Shown: positions 53,682 to 63,896 of the stretch, piece by piece
Position numbering within the stretch: position 1 is the first letter of the stretch
Layout of the letters: each line of letters begins with the position of its first letter
From: Nostoc cf. commune SO-36
GTDB taxonomy: Bacteria > Cyanobacteriota > Cyanobacteriia > Cyanobacteriales > Nostocaceae
Length of the DNA: 64,000 nt
Assembly: GCF_023734775.1 (NCBI RefSeq)
Contig: NZ_AP025732.1
Location: forward strand, 6,694,501 to 6,758,500
Direction: 5' to 3'
Translations under genes and position numbers: made by a program
Notes under the pieces: generated by a model
Seen by the model: the letters and a program-made list of their open reading frames with translations, nothing else
Databases searched by the model: none
What the model was told of the DNA's origin: nothing

Positions 53682-55148
53682 CTAATCCCCAGCCCCCAGA
53701 ATGCACCCACTGCGTGCGGGGACAGTTAACGACAACTGCTGAGTTTCTCCTTCACCATTCCACTCAACTTCAGCAGTGCCATATAAAAGCTTGTTGGGTT
53801 GAGTACGCAAACTGACGACATCTGCATTCGCTGTTGCCGAACTTGTGCCAGCGTTGACGGCAATTATCAATTCTTCTGTCCCTAGAGTTCGCGCAAAGAT
53901 ATAAATTTGTTCTTGAGCATGGAGAACTTGGTAATCACCTGTACGCAAGGCTGGGTATGTGTGGCGCAGGGCAATTAATTGACGGTGAGTATTGAAAATT
54001 TCTCGATTCCAGTTAGCTTCTAAGGGAAAGCCACGCCGTGAGTCTGGATCTATTGCACCTGGTAAACCAACTTCATCACCATAGTAAATACTGGGGGCAC
54101 CGGGAAAGGTGAGTAGCAATAGAGTTGACAATTCTATACTACCTATATCACCGTCTGCAATGGTCATCAATCTAGCTGTATCATGACTTGCTAGCAAATT
54201 GAGTTGAGTTAGCTGAATTTCCCAAGGGTAAAGTTGCAGTACTTCTTGGATTTTGGTAGCGTACTCGGCGGCAAATAAGGGTGGGTAGGGTTGATAGTCG
54301 CGGCTTTGGACTTGTTCTAAGTCTACGCGATCGCCAGCTGCAAAGGCAATTGTCGGCCCAGCAAATAGATAATTCATCACGCCGTCAAATTGCGTTCCAT
54401 CCAACCACTCACGGGAATCTCCCCACACTTCGCCGACAATATAAGCTTCGGGATTGATGGCTTTGACGCGATCGCGAAATTCCTGCCAAAAACCAGGAGT
54501 TTTTATTTCAAATGGTACATCTAATCGCCAACCATCAATGCCGAATTTTATCCAATATTCGGCAATTTCCATAATGTATTCTCGTACTTCTGGGTTGTCG
54601 TGGTTAAATTCTGGTAAAGCACGATTTCCTGCCCAACCTACATAATTAGCAGGGAATTCCCCATTGTATGCTGAAAGGGGCCAGCCTTCAATTTTGAACC
54701 AATTTACCCAAGGTGAATGGGGGCCATTTTCTAAAACGTCGTGGAAAAAGAAAAAGCCCCGGCTGGAATGGTTAAACACTCCATCCAGAACTACTTTGAT
54801 ATTCCTTTGGTGGGCTGCATCTAGCAATTCCTTAAAAGCCTCGTTGCCCCCTAACATCGGGTCAACTTGATAATAATCGTGGGTATGATAGCGGTGATTG
54901 CTGGCAGATTGAAAAATGGGTGTGAAATAAATCGCGTTAATCCCCAAATCCTGGATGTAGTCTAAACCCTCCATGATGCCCCATAAATCGCCACCTTTAT
55001 AGCCTTGGAGTGTTGGCATAGAGTCCCAATCTTCCCAACGGGCTTCCCGCAATAACCGTTTGCGCGGCTGTTTGCTTCTAGCAAAGCGGTCTGGGAAGAT
55101 TTGGTAGAAAACCGCGTGCTTTACCCAGTCTGGTGTTTGAATTTGCAT
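53682..55148 (-). CDS. alpha-amylase family enzyme (neopullulanase/cyclomaltodextrinase-like)
   Basis: A glycoside hydrolase family 13 enzyme acting on alpha-glucans. It has 488 residues with an (alpha/beta)8 barrel. Conserved regions are VVLDGVFNHSS (region I), DGWRLDVPFEI with the nucleophile Asp (region II), IVGEVWGDSREWLDG with the acid Glu (region III), and LLASHDTARL (region IV). FYQIFPDRFARS at the start and GYKGGDLWGIMEGLDYIQDL are typical of neopullulanase-type enzymes. No signal peptide is seen, so a role in glycogen or maltodextrin use inside the cell is likely. Confidence 0.9.
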   Translation of the reverse strand: MQIQTPDWVKHAVFYQIFPDRFARSKQPRKRLLREARWEDWDSMPTLQGYKGGDLWGIMEGLDYIQDLGINAIYFTPIFQSASNHRYHTHDYYQVDPMLGGNEAFKELLDAAHQRNIKVVLDGVFNHSSRGFFFFHDVLENGPHSPWVNWFKIEGWPLSAYNGEFPANYVGWAGNRALPEFNHDNPEVREYIMEIAEYWIKFGIDGWRLDVPFEIKTPGFWQEFRDRVKAINPEAYIVGEVWGDSREWLDGTQFDGVMNYLFAGPTIAFAAGDRVDLEQVQSRDYQPYPPLFAAEYATKIQEVLQLYPWEIQLTQLNLLASHDTARLMTIADGDIGSIELSTLLLLTFPGAPSIYYGDEVGLPGAIDPDSRRGFPLEANWNREIFNTHRQLIALRHTYPALRTGDYQVLHAQEQIYIFARTLGTEELIIAVNAGTSSATANADVVSLRTQPNKLLYGTAEVEWNGEGETQQLSLTVPARSGCILGAGD

Positions 55149-55908: not shown

Positions 55909-57635
55909 ATGAAGCACGAAAAACTTTCTCCCGGACTACTTTTGGCATTTCAAGACTATCAAAACGAAGGAGATCAAGCTTTAGTTACACACAAGCGATC
56001 GCTTGGCATCATTGCCCACAAAAGCCCGGTAAAGCCCACTAAGAGCGTCGTTTTTATCTACTGCGACCCTGATGCAGACTTAAGTTATCTATCACAATAT
56101 AATATTGAAGTCAATCAAAACTCTGGAAGTGTGCGGACAGCTTTCTTACCCTTAGAAAGTTTAGATGTCTTATCTGAAGAAGATGTTATCCAACGCATCA
56201 AGCCATCACGCAAACTTCATTTGAGGATGGACACTGCAATAGGAACAGTCAAACTGCCGGAATTTAAGAATCAAACCGGACTGACTGGTAAAGGAGTAAT
56301 CATCGGCATTATAGACAGTGGCATTGATCCGAAACACCCTGCCTTTGCTGGACGAATTTTACACATTTGGGATCAAACACTACCAGGCCCAGGAGTCACA
56401 GAGGGCGGCTATGGGGCTGAATTCACGGGAGCGCAACTGACAATTTCTCAAGATACTGGCGGTCATGGCACTCACGTTGCCGGAATTGCCGCCGGTGCTG
56501 ATGCTAGCTATGGCGGTGTAGCACCAGAAGCAGAATTAGTTATTGTCAGGTCAGATTTACAGGATGCCCACATTGCTGATGCTGTGCGTTACATTTTCCG
56601 ACTTGCTAAAGAGTTAGGACGCCCAGCAGTGGTAAATCTCAGCTTGGGTGGACACGCTGATGCCCATGATGGTAGTGATTCCTTATCCAAAGTTATTGAT
56701 GCCGAAACTGGCCCTGGAAGAATTGTTTGCTCTGCTGCGGGTAACGAAGGAAACGCTAACATTCATGGACAAACGACAATACCCAGTGGACGCACTCGTG
56801 GTATGCGCTTTAATGTTCCTTGAATCAAGTAGGCATAGTTTGGTTAAACGCTTGGTATTCTAAAGATAGCGAATTGGAAGTGTCCGTGCGGAGTCCTAAC
56901 GGTTTTGTAACTCCCTTCCAAAAAATAATTACTGATGGTAATGCTGCACAAGATTACCAGTTACCAGATTCACGGGTGCAATTAGCGACACCACCACCAG
57001 ACCAAGCCAACGGCGACCATAATTTCTTTGTGCAAATACGCGGTATTGGCCCCTCGCAAGTCATGGGAGGTATTTGGCAGCTGCGAGTCCGCAACTGTTC
57101 TTCAACTGACACATGTTTGAATGTGTGGACACTAGATGACACTTCATCAGTGTTTTTTACAGGTAAAAGTGTGAAGGATGCGGTAAAAATTGGCTCACCA
57201 GGAGCCGCCAGCAGTGCAATTACAGTTGCTGCCTATACTACTAGAACCAAGTACACAGATATTGATGGCCAAGTACGAGAAATGGGCTTAGAATTAAATA
57301 CTGTTTCCGACTTCAGTAGTGAAGGCCCCCTACGCAATAATGGACACAAGCCGGATGTAGCAGCACCAGGAGCGATGATTATTTCCACCCTTTCCGCCGA
57401 TGCAAATTTTGACCGTTCATCGATGATTAATTCTAAGTTTGTGGTGCAGGCGGGTACGAGTATGGCGACACCCTTTGTAAGTGGGTTAGTAGCACTGTTG
57501 TTGCAGCGAGATCCTAAACTTGATCCGGCTGCTGTGAAAGACTTGCTACGTAAAAATAGTGCTATTCCCGGAAAACCCCCAGGCACATTTGATGAGAAAT
57601 GGGGTTATGGAGTGATTAACGCTTTGAATCTGTAA
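55909..57635 (+). CDS. S8 subtilisin-like serine protease (frameshifted)
   Basis: A subtilase of 575 residues after correction. Residues 45-110 resemble an I9-type inhibitory propeptide (VVFIYCDPDADLSYLSQYNI then LDVLSEEDVIQRIKPSRKL). The catalytic parts are Asp136 in IIGIIDSGIDPKHPA, His186 in GGHGTHVAGIAAG, the substrate-site Asn in CSAAGNEGNANI, and Ser in AGTSMATPFVSGLVA. A jelly-roll-like insert lies between the Asn and Ser parts. One base is missing near 56818 (TTT to TT). There is no signal peptide, so it probably acts inside the cell. The stand-alone propeptide-like gene follows after 114 bases. Confidence 0.85.
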
Positions 57636-57749
57636 TTAGATTGAGAAAGGTGGATATTATTTCTGTACAAGGGTAGGCAATAATAACCTATAAATTTGAT
57701 AAGTTAGGGTAGACAGTAATTGTCTACCCTCTTTACTAAGGAATTGCTG

Positions 57750-58049
57750 ATGAATTATCAAAAATTAGATGCTGCTCTTGCTACAGCGCTGAATGATGTT
57801 CAAAATTCAGAAGAACCAAGTTTGACAGTTTTCATTCATACTGAACCAATTTTAAACTCTGCTGCAACTGCTGTTTTAGAAAGTTTTGGTGTCAGTGGTG
57901 TTAGCAGTGGCAAAGATATTTTCACGGCAACACTCTCACCAAATGCCATTTCTCAGTTGTCAGAGCAACCTTGGGTGAAATATTTGAAGCGATCGCAGCA
58001 ATTAGGTTTGGTTAATAGGAGACTAAATATAGGAAAATTGGGTGTTTAA
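57750..58049 (+). CDS. stand-alone subtilase propeptide-like (I9-type) protein
   Basis: A 99-residue protein starting MNYQKLDAALATALNDVQNS. Its core, SLTVFIHTEPILNSA, FTATLSPNAISQLSEQPWVK and YLKRSQQL, follows the order and spacing of the N-terminal propeptide of the upstream subtilase (VVFIYCDPDADLS, RTAFLPLESLDVLSEEDVIQ, RIKPSRKLHL). I9-like propeptides inhibit their proteases, so this may be a separate inhibitor. The assignment is by pattern, not by search. An in-frame ATG at 57750 is chosen, 114 bases after the protease stop. Confidence 0.55.
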   Translation: MNYQKLDAALATALNDVQNSEEPSLTVFIHTEPILNSAATAVLESFGVSGVSSGKDIFTATLSPNAISQLSEQPWVKYLKRSQQLGLVNRRLNIGKLGV

Positions 58050-58092
58050 TGGGCATTACCTAACCCTACACTGTGCGGATAATTTTTTGCGT

Positions 58093-58464
58093 TTATTGTG
58101 AGTCAGGTTTTGGTTTTTCTGCAAACTTACACTTCACCTCAATTTGCAGATTACTTTCGGCTGAACCTTCGGTAATGTAAGGAATGCCTGCTTTGCCACC
58201 CAACTTAATGCCAAATGTAAGTTTTACCTCCTCAATCTCAGCAGTATTGAAGTCTTTAAAAGCACTAAGAGCATAGATAGTATAAGAGCGAATCATTTGC
58301 CGAGCTTGTTGCATCCGAGCGATCGCATCTGTTCGCACATCCTTGTATTCTATGCCATCGTCATCCTCCTCAATTTCCGAACTTGTTTCGGTGGCTGTGA
58401 GGTTGATCTCAATCTGCTCAATCTCTCCATCTGCTTCAAAAAATAGTTGCTGTACTTCTGACAT
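58093..58464 (-). CDS. Trypco1-like (CU044_2847-type) protein
   Basis: A 123-residue protein starting MSEVQQLFFEADGEIEQIEI with an acidic middle region. The C-terminal VKLTFGIKLGGKAGIPYITE followed by ESNLQIEVKCKF has the pattern of the trypsin-co-occurring domain 1, a small domain found next to proteases and STAND proteins in biological conflict systems. It is divergent to the caspase gene, with starts 146 bases apart, so both may share a control region. The function is inferred from context. Confidence 0.65.
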   Translation of the reverse strand: MSEVQQLFFEADGEIEQIEINLTATETSSEIEEDDDGIEYKDVRTDAIARMQQARQMIRSYTIYALSAFKDFNTAEIEEVKLTFGIKLGGKAGIPYITEGSAESNLQIEVKCKFAEKPKPDSQ

Positions 58465-58609
58465 GGGATACCTCAGTTAAATTTTTGTATCGTGTCTGAA
58501 AAATTTCAATTTGCTTGTAGAAAAATAATAGATGGTATTGTTTCTAGTAACACAGTCATCATTGTGTCTCTCAAGATTATCCCGCATTTTTCAACCTAAG
58601 GTGTGTTAA

Positions 58610-61600
58610 ATGGCACGATACGCGCTTGTTATTGGCATCGCTGAGTATGTCAGCCTATCATTACCGCGTTTGTCGAAGACTACAAATGATGCTGAAGCGA
58701 TCGCGCAACTCCTAGAGCAGTATGGTGATTTCCAGTCTGTGCAAAGACTACCACAGCGCTGGAACAAAGATAAAAACGGCTATGAAATGGCAGCGTCAAA
58801 AGTTACTGGCGCTGAAATCGGTCAAAAAATCAAAACATTCCTGCTAGAGCAAGCTGCTAATAATGAAGCGCTGATTTATTTTAGCGGGCATGGGTTTACT
58901 ATTTCCGACAACTTAGGACAACAAAAAGGATATTTGGCAAGTTCCGATTGTCAGATTGAATTTAAGGATAACGAAAATGTTGAACAAAAATATGGCATTG
59001 ACTTGGATAGCCTTAACGACTTAATTCGATATTCGCAATTGAGTAGTTTAGTGATGCTACTCGATTGTTGTCATAGCGGCTATTTTTTAGAAAAACAATT
59101 AATAGAAAGAACTCTTAACGCTTTCAGTAAACAAAAGGATTATTACTTAATTACAGCTTGTCGCCGCTTTGAACGCGCAGCAGTTATTAAGAGTGAAGAA
59201 TATAGTATTTTCACAGGTGCTGTTATCAAGGGATTAGCAGTTGAAAATGCAGGGAGTAGTAGGCGAATTAGTAGCGATCGCTTATTCGATTTTGTCAGCA
59301 ACGAATTGAAAGGTTCAGTACAAGAACCAATTCGTATGGGCTTAGGAAGTTTGATTACTTTGATAACTTATCCTCAATTAGATATTCCGAAAGAAGAAGT
59401 TGCTTTTAATCGGAGAAATCCTTATCGAGGACTTTATGCTTTTGAATTCGAGCAAGCACAATATTTTGGTGGACGACAACAAGCAGTTCGCACACTGATT
59501 TTACGTTTGCTGGATAGTCGTTTTTTGGCTGTAATTGGCTACTCAGGTAGTGGCAAATCTTCGTTGGTAAAAGCAGGTTTGTTACCGCAACTGAAAGACA
59601 ATCGCTGCCTGGAAGCAGTGAATGGACGATCGCATCTTTTACCCCTGGAGAACACCCTCTAGGCAAATTAGTTGATATTCTGGCTCGACAACAACAAAAT
59701 CAGCCTTATGTGCTATTTATCGATCAGTTTGAAGAAATATTCACTCTCTGTGAAGACGAAGAGGAAAGAAAAGCTTTTATCCGCTCAGTGGTACAGGAAG
59801 TTAAGGCGGCTGAAAAACAAACGCGGATAATTTTGACAATGCGAGGTGATTTTTTAAATAAATGTGCTGAATATCTAGAAATTATTACTCTTATTAATAG
59901 CGATCCTCCCACAGCATTCATCGTCACACCAATGTCTTTTGCTGAATTACAGGAAGCTATTGAAAAACCTGCGAATTTGCATGGCGTGACTTTTGAACAT
60001 GGTTTAGTATCGCAAATTGCTCAAGACATTATTGGACAGCCGGGAGCATTACCACTCTTACAATACGCCCTTAAAGAACTATGGCGAGTTTGTATAGAAG
60101 CGGAATCTCCACAACCACTTTTAACTCACATAGGATATGAAGAAATTGGGGGAGTTATAGGAGCTTTAGACAAACGAGCTACAATTTTATATCAAAGTTT
60201 TACAACCGTAGATCAAAAGTTTGTCCAAAGCTTATTTATGGAGTTGGTGCAATTAAGTAAAAGTGGAGGAGTGACGCGGCGGCGTGTTAGCTGGGAGAGA
60301 TTAGCAGCAATTTCAGATTCTCCACAACAGCTGCAACGGGTGATAGGATTATTAGCTGATTCCCAACAACGCTTAATTATCACTGATGAAAAGACAATAG
60401 AAGTCGCCCATGAAGCGCTGATATCTGAGTGGAAATTACTCAACAGTTGGATTGCTAAAGATTTGGAGAATATTCGTCTCCATCGCTCTTTAGAAGAAGA
60501 TTGTCAAGAATGGCAGGAAATATTTAATAAATCCGATGATGCACTATTAACGGGTGCAAAGTTAGCTGTAATTGCGGAGTGGGTAGAGAAAACTCAACCA
60601 AGATTTACGCCACCAGAAATAGAGTTTTTGCAAAAGAGTTTAAAAAGGCGCAATCGAGAAATACAATCTGAACTAGAGCATGAACGCCAATTGCGAGAGC
60701 TAGCAGAATCTCGACAAGAAGAAGCAGAAGCTAGGGCCAAAGCTGAAGCAGAAAAAACAACAGGAAGCCCGTAATAGAGTTAAAGCTGAAAGGCAAAAAA
60801 ATTGGTGGTTGTCTTTAGCAGTAGTTAATTTGACAATAGTTGCAGTCTTGGTTATTGGACTGAAGCAACAAGCAAATCAACGAGAAAAAGCTGTTATCGA
60901 AGTTTTAATTTTAGAACCAGAACAGCTATTGAAAGTCCACAAACAGTTAGAAGCATTGATAAAAAGTGTAAAAGTACTGAAATATTTAAAAAAAATTGGT
61001 GCAGAGCAAATCGCATCTACTAAAAGGCTCCAAAATATTATCTCTCAATCCAAAGAGCGCAATCGCTTAGAAGGACATAGTGAGACAGTTAATGATGTTA
61101 GCATTAGTCCAGACGGTAACATGATTGCTTCTGCAAGTAACGATAAAACTGTCAGACTTTGGACTAAGGAAGGTAAGCCATTCAAACAACCTCTAAAACA
61201 CAATAGTGCGGTTTGGGCTGTTACTTTTAGTAACGATGGTAATTTGCTTGCTTCCGGCGATGCTGGTGGAATTGTCAACATTTGGAATAGTCGAAATGGA
61301 GAGCTGAAACAAAAATTTCTCCCACCAAAAAATGTTAAAGAAGACGATAGGCTTGTTTTAAAAGTGAGCTTTAGTCCTGACGATCGGACAATTGCCTCGG
61401 CTAATTGGGATAAAACTGTAAAAATTTGGAATGTTGCAAATGGTGATTTAATCAAAACCTTGACAGATGGAAATCGGGTTAATGCCGTGAATTTTAGTTT
61501 AGATGGTAATATGATTGCGGCTGGTGGAGATGATAAAACTGTCAAAGTTTGGAAAGCTCAAGATAAAACATTATTGAAAAAGCTTGCAAACGGAGATGTG

Positions 61601-62068
61601 ATTTATGGAGTAAGTTTCAGTCCAGATGCTAGTATCCTAGCTTCTGCTAGTCAGGATAAAACTGTAAAAATTTGGGATGTTGCTAGTGAAAAAATTAAAA
61701 GAACATTCCATCATCAAGACTCAGTTTATGCAGTAAGTTTTAATCAGGATGGTAATATGCTAGCTTCTGCTAGTAAAGATAAAACTGTGAAAATTTGGAG
61801 TATTCCTAACGGCAATAAATTAGAAGAATTTTGGCACAGTGATAGTGTCAACAGCGTTACTTTTAGCCATCAGGATCAAATGATAGCATCGGCTCAGAGT
61901 AAAATCGTCACGCTTTGGCATATCAATTCAAATATAAGTAATGTAAAAGTAAAAAGTCGAGATGAATTATTAAAATATAGTTGCGATATTCTGCGAAATT
62001 ATTTAACTAACAATTCCCAGATATCAAAAGAAGATAAACATATCTGTGATGAGTTTTACAAGAGATAG
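58610..62068 (+). CDS. caspase (metacaspase-like)-nSTAND1-transmembrane-WD40 protein (two compensating frameshifts)
   Basis: A conflict-system effector and sensor of 1152 residues after correction. The caspase domain (1-240) has His94 in YFSGHGFTI and Cys154 in LLDCCHSGYF. An nSTAND1 NTPase follows, with Walker A GYSGSGKS (about 310-317) and Walker B YVLFIDQFEEIFTL. A charged coiled coil (RQEEAEARAKAEAEK) precedes a transmembrane segment (LSLAVVNLTIVAVLVIGL, about 735). Seven WD40 blades make a propeller (about 820-1120; KTVKIW motifs), with the short tail SRDELLKYSCDILRNYL. One base is missing near 59605 and one is extra in an A run at 60752-60757, so first and last parts share a frame. Confidence 0.85.
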
Positions 62069-62126
62069 ATGCTTTGAGGCGATAATTAAATTTAAATCAA
62101 AATCACATTTGAAATTAAAGGAATTT

Positions 62127-63398
62127 ATGCTAGAAACCAACAGTAAATTGCTGGAAATTATCCACGACTTAATTAAAGATATCGTCGAGCAAAATCCCAA
62201 AGCAATTTATTATATACAGGAAATGATCTATGAAGGTAAATATGGTCGGCGCTTGCAAGGATTTGATGGCAATGTTCCAGCACATGATGACAATGTTAAT
62301 GATGTTAAAGTAAGTTTAGACGGTAAGATGATTGCTTCTGCAAGTGTAGATAAAACTGTAAAAGTTTGGCGTAAGCAAGAAGACGATACTTTTTTATCAA
62401 CTTCATGGAAAATGATTGATAGTTTGGATATACAACATCAAAGCCCAGTTTGGTCTGTTACTTTTAGTCGTAATGGTGAGTTGATTGCTTCTGGTGATGC
62501 TGATGGAATTATAAAAATTACAAGCATAAATAATAACAGTATTAATAGACAAATAAAACCAAAAGAAGATAATGATGAGATTGTTTTAAAACTTATGTTC
62601 AGCCCTGACGATCAGTCAATTGTATCTGCTAATTGGGATAAAAACGTAAGGGTTTGGAAGCTTTTAGATCATAACTATGAACTCATAAAAATTGGCGAAC
62701 ACGACGATAAAGTTTATGGAGTGTGTTTTAACTCTGATGGTAAGTTTATCGCTTCTGGTGGTGGAGATAACAAAGTAAATATTTGGAGTTTACCTCCTGA
62801 TGCTAAACTGCTACATTCTTTAGTGCCTGAATTAGAGAAAAAAATGGCTCAAAAAACTCCAGTTTTTGATGTCAAGTTTAGCTTTGATGGTCAAATGATA
62901 GCTGCTGCTTATAAAGATAACTTTGTTCGGATTTGGGATATAAAAACAAAGAAGACTATAAAAAATTGCAAACATAAAGATACAGTGTATGGAATCAGTT
63001 TCAGTCCTGACAATCAGATGATCGCCTCTGGAAGTAAAGATGGATTTGTAAGAGTTTGGTCTACCGTGACTTATGGAGATTTAAATGCAGAACCAATAGC
63101 AGAATTTTGGCATGGGGTTCAGATAAATAGCGTTAGTTTTAGCCATGATGGTAAGTTTATCGCTTCTGGTGGTGATGATAAAAATGTTAGAATTTGGGAT
63201 ACCGTAAACATTGGTGAAAGTAGACAAGAACTAATAGAACGAATATCAAAAGATACATATAATTATTTAATAAACATTGTTAATCAACCAGCAATTTTTG
63301 ATATTTTACAAAATTTGTTAAGTATTGATAAAACTAAAGCAAGGGAGATAAATATCGGAGATTTTCTTAAGAACGTTTTTTTAACTCCAGGCAATTAA
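62127..63398 (+). CDS. second WD40 beta-propeller protein, paralogue of the upstream propeller
   Basis: A 423-residue protein from ATG 62127 (MLETNSKLLEII), which has AAGGA before it; the frame is open from 62046 and overlaps the caspase gene. An N-terminal helical part (about 1-45) precedes seven WD40 blades in the same order as the caspase protein: for example SPDDQSIVSANWDKNVRVW here against SPDDRTIASANWDKTVKIW there. The C-terminal tail SRQELIERISKDTYNYLIN matches the upstream tail. It has no effector, NTPase or membrane segment. It may be a decoy, regulator or alternative sensor subunit. Confidence 0.85.
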   Translation: MLETNSKLLEIIHDLIKDIVEQNPKAIYYIQEMIYEGKYGRRLQGFDGNVPAHDDNVNDVKVSLDGKMIASASVDKTVKVWRKQEDDTFLSTSWKMIDSLDIQHQSPVWSVTFSRNGELIASGDADGIIKITSINNNSINRQIKPKEDNDEIVLKLMFSPDDQSIVSANWDKNVRVWKLLDHNYELIKIGEHDDKVYGVCFNSDGKFIASGGGDNKVNIWSLPPDAKLLHSLVPELEKKMAQKTPVFDVKFSFDGQMIAAAYKDNFVRIWDIKTKKTIKNCKHKDTVYGISFSPDNQMIASGSKDGFVRVWSTVTYGDLNAEPIAEFWHGVQINSVSFSHDGKFIASGGDDKNVRIWDTVNIGESRQELIERISKDTYNYLINIVNQPAIFDILQNLLSIDKTKAREINIGDFLKNVFLTPGN

Positions 63399-63530
63399 AA
63401 AAATGCCTAGCCTAAACTAGCAAACTAATAGTAATGTCAAAAACACAATGATTGCTTTAAGAGATACTTTTAGGCGAAAAACATTGATGGCTTCGTAAAA
63501 CAAAAAATTTAAAAATGGGAGTTACTGCAC

Positions 63531-63725
63531 ATGAAATTAATTCTACTGCCGACAAACGTAGAAGAACCTTCTGAAACCGCGAATTTTTGGTTGAAGAGTA
63601 ATTATTATCGACCGTTTCAGCAATCAATTAACTTAATTGAACTTTGCGATCGCGGATGTCCTCGGAAAGATAAAGATTCTCCACGTTGTCTACTAAAAAA
63701 AGGGGTTAATACAAATTCTGTGTGA
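63531..63725 (+). CDS. short protein of unknown function, possibly truncated
   Basis: A 64-residue frame starting MKLILLPTNVEEPSETANFW with GGGAG 12 bases before the ATG. The first 40 residues look like a real N-terminus; from CDRGCPRKD on, the sequence appears to be a dispersed repeat read through. It may be a truncated gene of the conflict cluster. No family is recognised. Confidence 0.35.
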   Translation: MKLILLPTNVEEPSETANFWLKSNYYRPFQQSINLIELCDRGCPRKDKDSPRCLLKKGVNTNSV

Positions 63726-63896
63726 TTTTGCCAAAAATCAGATACTCTTGCCTCTAATTCCTCCAAACAAGGGGGATTGGAGGTATTGTGATGTGCAAAA
63801 GAATAGAAAAATGGTAGTCGTCGTAGAACTAGTGTAGCGATTGATCGCACCCATTCTTCATACTCACTAATACAAACGTTCTAGCTTTTCTCCTTA

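Follow-up and report, generated by a model that had tools for sequence, protein, structure and literature searches.

The window examined here, a 64,000-nucleotide stretch of Nostoc cf. commune SO-36 (positions 6694501-6758500 of contig C1, genome G000, 7.4 Mb), carries near its end a compact group of peptidase and WD40 genes between two sugar-storage genes. An alpha-amylase family gene on the reverse strand (53682..55148; PF00128, E 4.3e-67), a conserved neighbour, forms one border, and glgC, directly past the window end (L165:8-1314), the other. Between them lie a Csp-like subtilase gene (55909..57635, forward); a free-standing 99-amino-acid prodomain homologue with no catalytic domain, here called S (57750..58049, forward); a Trypco1 gene (58093..58464, reverse); a divergent gene for a receptor with caspase, nSTAND1 and WD40 parts; and a second, orphan WD40 propeller. 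An earlier note had placed a subtilase, Trypco1, caspase, nSTAND1 and two propellers here, and Pfam matches bear this out. The locus is read below, with a probability of roughly 0.6 for the whole, as an old slot probably holding two separable protease modules, subtilase-S and Trypco1-caspase, the latter with a near-constant effector and switch and a sensor block that appears to be exchanged.

The subtilase and its free prodomain homologue

Both halves of the window subtilase match PF00082 (E 3e-23 and 1.8e-22); most relatives have an intact protein of 575 amino acids. The prodomain occupies about residues 1-105, with its end presumed, and is followed by an S8 domain with an insertion. Residues D136, H186 and S518 are unchanged across 36 orthologues, in columns which we take to be the S8 catalytic Asp, His and Ser. 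The nearest solved structures by sequence are the Csp germination proteases, 3afg and 9ues: CspB (4i0w) aligns to residues 116-533 as one stretch (E 9.9e-26), and 3afg matches in two stretches, with ~180 amino acids between them compared to ~20 in 3afg itself. Every NCBIfam match of the subtilase fell under its cut-off, and the I9 model matched none of 20 subtilase prodomains. A PADLOC scan returned the generic “subtilase” model (E 2.9e-17 and 1.3e-15), with IetS weaker and partial; an S8 peptidase is common to this locus, IetAS and the PADLOC “subtilase,” but unlike IetAS, no IetA was found among the eight window gene pieces scanned.

The free prodomain homologue was detected by profile comparison. 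Against the subtilase's own prodomain, a profile of 23 S orthologues scored 97.4% in hhalign over 91 columns, while none of the controls (14 windows, two reversed alignments) exceeded 1.6%. When the profile was run against 386 genomes across the phylum, all eight matches beyond S genes fell inside a subtilase prodomain; in a 24-genome test three of four did so, the fourth overlapping a weak S match in G697. Eleven columns are invariant among the 23 orthologues, and 73 of 77 best S matches are stop-free inside. The conserved part of S is closed by an L-x-L motif, which aligns with an L-x-L close to the prodomain end; some orthologues terminate at this motif or soon after, and, judging by alignment to subtilisins, it may correspond to the cleavage-site position of the prodomain. 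By profile, then, S is a homologue of the prodomain of the neighboring Csp-like subtilase. The “I9-like” label given to it in the earlier note has two supports, this profile match and I9 matches below threshold in four of the 23 orthologues (best E 0.083); the window's own S has no Pfam match, even at E 10. A PDB sequence search using S gave nothing credible. Its best named relatives, among the 120 best matches listed, are mostly Nostoc.

Co-occurrence was followed in three surveys: a main one of 148 genomes, the window's own included; the 386-genome phylum search with the S profile, which overlaps the first; and the test of 24 genomes, 14 of them new and picked for having the subtilase, the other 10 already in the phylum search. 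In the main survey 76 genomes have both genes, one the subtilase only (G053), one S only (G083), and 70 neither (a further, weak match to S in G073 is excluded from this tally); in the phylum search the corresponding figures are 16 with both, one with the subtilase only (again G053), and 369 with neither. S was found in 12 of the 14 newly tested subtilase-bearing genomes, the match in G697 being weak, and of the ten re-tested, G091 has both genes and the nine without a subtilase are also without S. The subtilase is within 20 kb of S in 64 of 77 S genomes, always upstream and on the same strand, but in several (G071, G218, G056) the two are far apart or on separate contigs; since they are kept together even then, neighborhood alone does not explain the association. 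These counts demonstrate co-retention in addition to homology. The earlier note's idea of a subtilase with a separate inhibitor gains from both, inhibition itself being a prediction from sequence.

Two kinds of known system come close. Like CspB and other Csp proteases, the subtilase has an N-terminal prodomain, the S8 triad and an apparent insertion in the catalytic domain, a candidate for the jellyroll of that family; the CspB prodomain is reported to stay on the enzyme after cleavage and obstruct its active site (PMC3567191). Unlike the Csp proteases, the subtilase here is cyanobacterial and accompanied by a second, separately encoded prodomain homologue. In being small, free and prodomain-like, S recalls the stand-alone I9 inhibitors (SUB1-ProM, TgMIC5, and examples from Pleurotus, yeast and Arabidopsis), of which SUB1-ProM is described as syntenic with subtilase genes and inhibiting its subtilase (PMC6993865). 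The examples named there are eukaryotic, whereas the pair here is bacterial, its I9 match is sub-threshold, and its inhibition is predicted. No report of a cyanobacterial subtilase with a free homologue of its prodomain was found in the literature covered, most subscription journals being outside that coverage.

Trypco1, the caspase receptor and its propellers

Trypco1 belongs to the PF19493/NCBIfam CU044_2847 family (NF041216), with E 1.1e-17 to the Pfam model and 3.8e-24 to the NCBIfam one. The receptor gene divergent to it encodes a C14 caspase domain (58610..59404, forward; PF00656, E 2.6e-17) with the SGHG histidine and DCCHSG cysteine in place; H94 and C154, presumably the caspase catalytic residues, are unchanged in 11 aligned caspase domains. 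An nSTAND1 NTPase with a charged, helical-looking stretch follows (59405..60771, forward; PF20703 pieces with E 1.5e-21 and 1.2e-78), in which GYSGSGKSS (Walker A) and LFIDQFEE (Walker B) were read by eye, and then a WD40 propeller (60809..62068, forward; PF00400). The membrane anchor proposed in the earlier note has as its counterpart a hydrophobic stretch of ~20 residues (~60809-60870) between nSTAND and WD40, again read by eye, which would fit such a role. In 15 relatives compared the receptor is one open frame of 1124-1192 amino acids, in the order of the STAND nSTAND1-clade architecture: N-terminal effector, nSTAND1 NTPase, C-terminal sensor repeats.

In the main survey Trypco1 is within 3 kb of 59 of 64 caspase loci, divergent in 58. 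Of the 80 named loci (the best of 261, some ending at contig ends), 68 have it on the strand opposite to the caspase. S, in comparison, is within 15 kb of 21 of the 64 caspase loci, and the subtilase of 20, so subtilase-S and Trypco1-caspase can be regarded as separable modules. Many genomes have only one of them, which makes the linkage non-obligatory: S and subtilase occur without an adjoining caspase pair in dozens of genomes, and G108, G098, G119 and G141 have Trypco1-caspase without a subtilase or S match. Seven Nostoc genomes have Trypco1, mostly as a remnant, beside S and no caspase match within 3 kb; two of these, G049 and G017, retain nSTAND fragments. G024 has one Trypco1 remnant and one intact copy. 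A five-gene system as an obligatory unit was accordingly set aside: the modules occur apart, and the second propeller is not conserved.

Comparison with Trypco1/EACC1 conflict systems shows common elements in the Trypco1 domain, a caspase as the conserved peptidase, and a constant core with variable parts. As given in their description (Kaur et al., 2020; PMC7159879), Trypco1 was named after trypsin neighbors, and the caspase has as its partner EACC1, which carries a membrane helix. The window differs from the EACC1-caspase system: its Trypco1 is paired divergently with a caspase-nSTAND1-WD40 protein, the window gene pieces scanned include no EACC1, and the caspase model NF047832 scored 92.9 bits, under its cut-off of 140. 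Unlike the Trypco1-trypsin (VMAP) system, there is no trypsin-like peptidase neighbor among the eight window gene pieces scanned; elsewhere, a trypsin-like gene is beside Trypco1 in G012 (by Pfam) and at L254 and L255 (by profile). Cyanobacterial caspase/metacaspase proteins with WD40 repeats, some also with NACHT, are reported (PMC2853523), and the window receptor likewise combines caspase and WD40 repeats. In its Trypco1 partner, amylase-glgC home and proposed sensor-block exchange the locus differs from that description, as far as the part seen extends.

The receptor's parts may have had different histories. Identities were computed for single-frame receptors, ten at the same locus (45 pairs) and five others; in the ten, median identity is 89% for the caspase and 91% for nSTAND, but 35% for the C-terminal propeller part (range 26-80). 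At the DNA level, counting matches of at least 200 bases, the alignment of the window with six relatives starts near the subtilase and stops where nSTAND ends (60680-60800); between there and 63831-63868, just before glgC, none of the six has a match. The proposed exchanged sensor block delimited by these breakpoints (60750..63850, forward) includes the membrane stretch, the WD40 propeller and the second propeller (62046..63398, forward; PF00400), a tandem paralogue of the first with 42% identity over 368 positions and no match at the same place in the six relatives. Tandem Repeats Finder (TRF) detected no propeller-sized tandem DNA repeat. Five of seven pairs with G028 break inside the same 100 bases; its alignment with G012 breaks earlier, directly after the caspase, and that with G041 continues through the propeller part at 70-71% nucleotide identity. 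G037 and G004 align straight through the block at 91% and are thus taken as one shared block class.

Nearest neighbors were also compared domain by domain, using 57 single-frame receptor proteins no shorter than 900 amino acids (those that are short or frame-broken were excluded). Of the propellers compared, those of Tolypothrix L248 (52%) and G098 (46%) come nearest to the receptor propeller of the window, whereas the window caspase shares 91% identity with Nostoc. Similar incongruence is seen in G043 and in Microcoleus/Tychonema, where the caspases of L257 and L260 are 96% identical and the propellers 53%. Taken together, this looks like a sensor block exchanged between strains while caspase and nSTAND stay near-constant, and we infer exchange rather than very fast divergence of the propeller part. 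The suggestion in the earlier note that the propellers are sensors gains support from this pattern, the sensing of invaders being presumed. No report of propeller-block exchange in Trypco1-caspase receptors was found in the literature covered, from which most subscription journals are absent. The contrast in identity between the receptor's parts, and the stretch of unmatched DNA from nSTAND to glgC, are new here.

A second orphan propeller also lies beside the receptor in G041 (L107:6328-7404), where it is closer to G041's own propeller. Some Nostoc and three other lineages have a papain-like C1 peptidase gene that converges on the caspase gene (L102:11770-12927, L116:12709-13992, L270:11510, L293:11612). 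It was considered as a constant third part and rejected, being present in only seven of 29 caspase-bearing stretches and eight of the 80 named loci; with so patchy a distribution it can be no more than an accessory to certain sensor blocks.

All of these domains are present in the window, but in the assembly subtilase and receptor each lack a continuous open frame. The subtilase is spread over two frames (a single-base length change at ~56820) and the caspase receptor over three (single-base changes at ~59603 and ~60744), relatives being intact in both cases; glgC is split by another single-base length change. Assembly error or real decay are both possible. If the changes are real, with subtilase and receptor dead, the locus would be decaying in this strain, and four single-base length changes within ~7.5 kb do stand out against 12 close same-strand frame changes counted over 400 kb in other parts of the genome (by a hexamer scan, which gave 10 in the 199 kb around the locus, the four included). 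Caspase genes at the slot are also broken or fragmentary in G038, G049 and G017. The scan found only six such changes in 560 kb of G037, however, and because they are commoner across the window's own genome, assembly error is a live explanation. It would also fit the involvement of glgC, the single-base nature of the changes, and their absence from G038, whose subtilase is the most similar among the relatives. Of 38 rows of G037 and G041 open reading frames (ORFs) with a close orthologue in a sample of the window's genome, nine find it in several frames, compared to none of 23 in the reverse control; the nine represent four genes of the window's genome, of which three belong to the locus. On balance, decay is an unlikely account.

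The amylase-glgC slot

In 200 kb of the window's own genome, 14 of 116 G037 ORFs from around the locus are matched (at least 60%). These 14 form a single collinear island of ~19 kb, with flanks lacking matches: three genes (one presumably fasciclin-like), amylase, subtilase, S, Trypco1, caspase, glgC, an AAA protein, DnaJ, and three more. Linkage to amylase, subtilase, S or glgC was seen at 20 of the 30 named loci whose caspase reaches 57% identity or more, and, within the flanks fetched, at none of the 50 more distant ones.

The earlier note would have taken it as a refutation if the five genes were not co-conserved in any related genome; this is not borne out. Caspase, S and subtilase are within 15 kb of each other in 20 of the 148 genomes, including the window's own and G084, from another genus. 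Beyond Nostoc, a Symplocastrum torsivum metagenome-assembled genome (MAG), from another family, has amylase-subtilase-S-Trypco1-caspase at 58-79% identity (58-69% for the last four); G512, from a third family, has amylase-Trypco1-caspase and subtilase-S-glgC on one contig; and a UBA8803 MAG has S-Trypco1-caspase, with the subtilase on another contig. Partial arrangements include amylase-Trypco1-caspase in Trichocoleus and G098, caspase-glgC in UBA11371, and, in G119, amylase on one side and glgC on the other. The proposed co-localization is therefore found in several families for subtilase, S, Trypco1 and caspase, but not for the second propeller, nor as an obligatory set; a meeting of the modules only in Nostoc and close kin was discarded on the same linkage. 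In a caspase tree of 47 rows from selected loci, “linked” labels (assigned by hand, with L135 confirmed only afterwards) change seven times, compared to 16.0 in shuffles, a clustering that fits one old origin with losses or repeated arrival alike.

Linkage in several families leaves room for interaction between the modules. Subtilase, S, Trypco1 and caspase receptor might form one integrated protease cascade, their co-localization being selected. Their joint occurrence in Nostoc, Symplocastrum and on the single G512 contig, the UBA8803 arrangement, and a conserved gene order amid unmatched flanks would all be expected of it. Against it, the caspase pair is within 15 kb in just 21 of the 77 S genomes, four genomes have Trypco1-caspase with no match to subtilase or S, S is accompanied in the seven Nostoc genomes by a Trypco1 match, mostly a remnant, but by no caspase match within 3 kb, and amylase and glgC share the same neighborhood. 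It is distinctly improbable. The slot could instead be a neutral old neighborhood, a spot for insertion or retention in which subtilase-S does ordinary intracellular proteolysis and S no longer acts in trans. The Trypco1 remnants, as signs of turnover, and the other occupants of the slot (a pentapeptide/HTH pair in G015, a caspase-trypsin-pentapeptide cassette in G012, another nSTAND1-WD40 gene in G063) speak for this; but S is stop-free inside in nearly all best matches, has its 11 invariant columns, and is kept with the subtilase even when unlinked. This too is doubtful.

Several observations weigh against the preferred reading, that of an old slot with two separable modules and an exchanged sensor block. 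The E-value of the S-prodomain match covers one comparison; the S search was negative in subtilase-bearing G590 and G712, as it was in G053, and G083 has S without a subtilase match. Most positive genomes are from one family, so shared descent inflates the co-occurrence counts. The low propeller identity could be fast or unequal divergence, considering how far G028/G041 and G037/G004 align, although block classes would give such a pattern too. The linked records of Symplocastrum, UBA8803 and UBA11371 are MAGs, and multi-family linkage may also reflect cooperation between the two modules. In the window strain, finally, subtilase and receptor may be non-functional.

Possible workings of the two modules

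If the preferred reading of two separable modules is right, a subtilase that is probably cytosolic would most likely be bound, when mature, by S in trans. The conserved L-x-L end of S would sit in the active-site groove like a cleaved prodomain, and S could hold the subtilase off, or aid its folding, until removed. A bacterial subtilase keeping a separately encoded prodomain relative would be a simple protease switch. In the other module, the receptor propeller may bind a trigger, upon which nSTAND1 would open and oligomerize at the membrane, bringing caspase domains together to cut targets and cause cell death or arrest. Trypco1, small and present in most cases, would act as a partner or adaptor. 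Effector and switch would stay near-constant while membrane stretch, propeller and accessory gene are replaced between strains; a sensor block that changes at one common breakpoint among closely related strains would be a natural experiment on propeller recognition.

A relay between the modules is conceivable but very improbable: the triggered, oligomerized caspase would cut S and free a stockpiled, prodomain-locked subtilase, which would kill or clear the cell. The S tail has several Arg/Lys residues, by eye. If true, S would act as a fuse that connects a polymorphic STAND receptor to a latent subtilase.

The slot's other contents vary. In G015 (L111:10517-13374), pentapeptide and HTH genes lie between subtilase and S, and genes of similar size are found there in some other genomes. 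The G012 cassette (L112:6266-10840) consists of a caspase without nSTAND, a trypsin-like gene and a pentapeptide gene; the caspase tail and the pentapeptide protein have in common a GSG-INY-EA-like motif, by eye. In G063 (L118:6768-11390) a 1540-amino-acid nSTAND1-WD40 protein is encoded downstream of S, and the Trypco1-caspase pair is ~28 kb from it, adjoining glgC.

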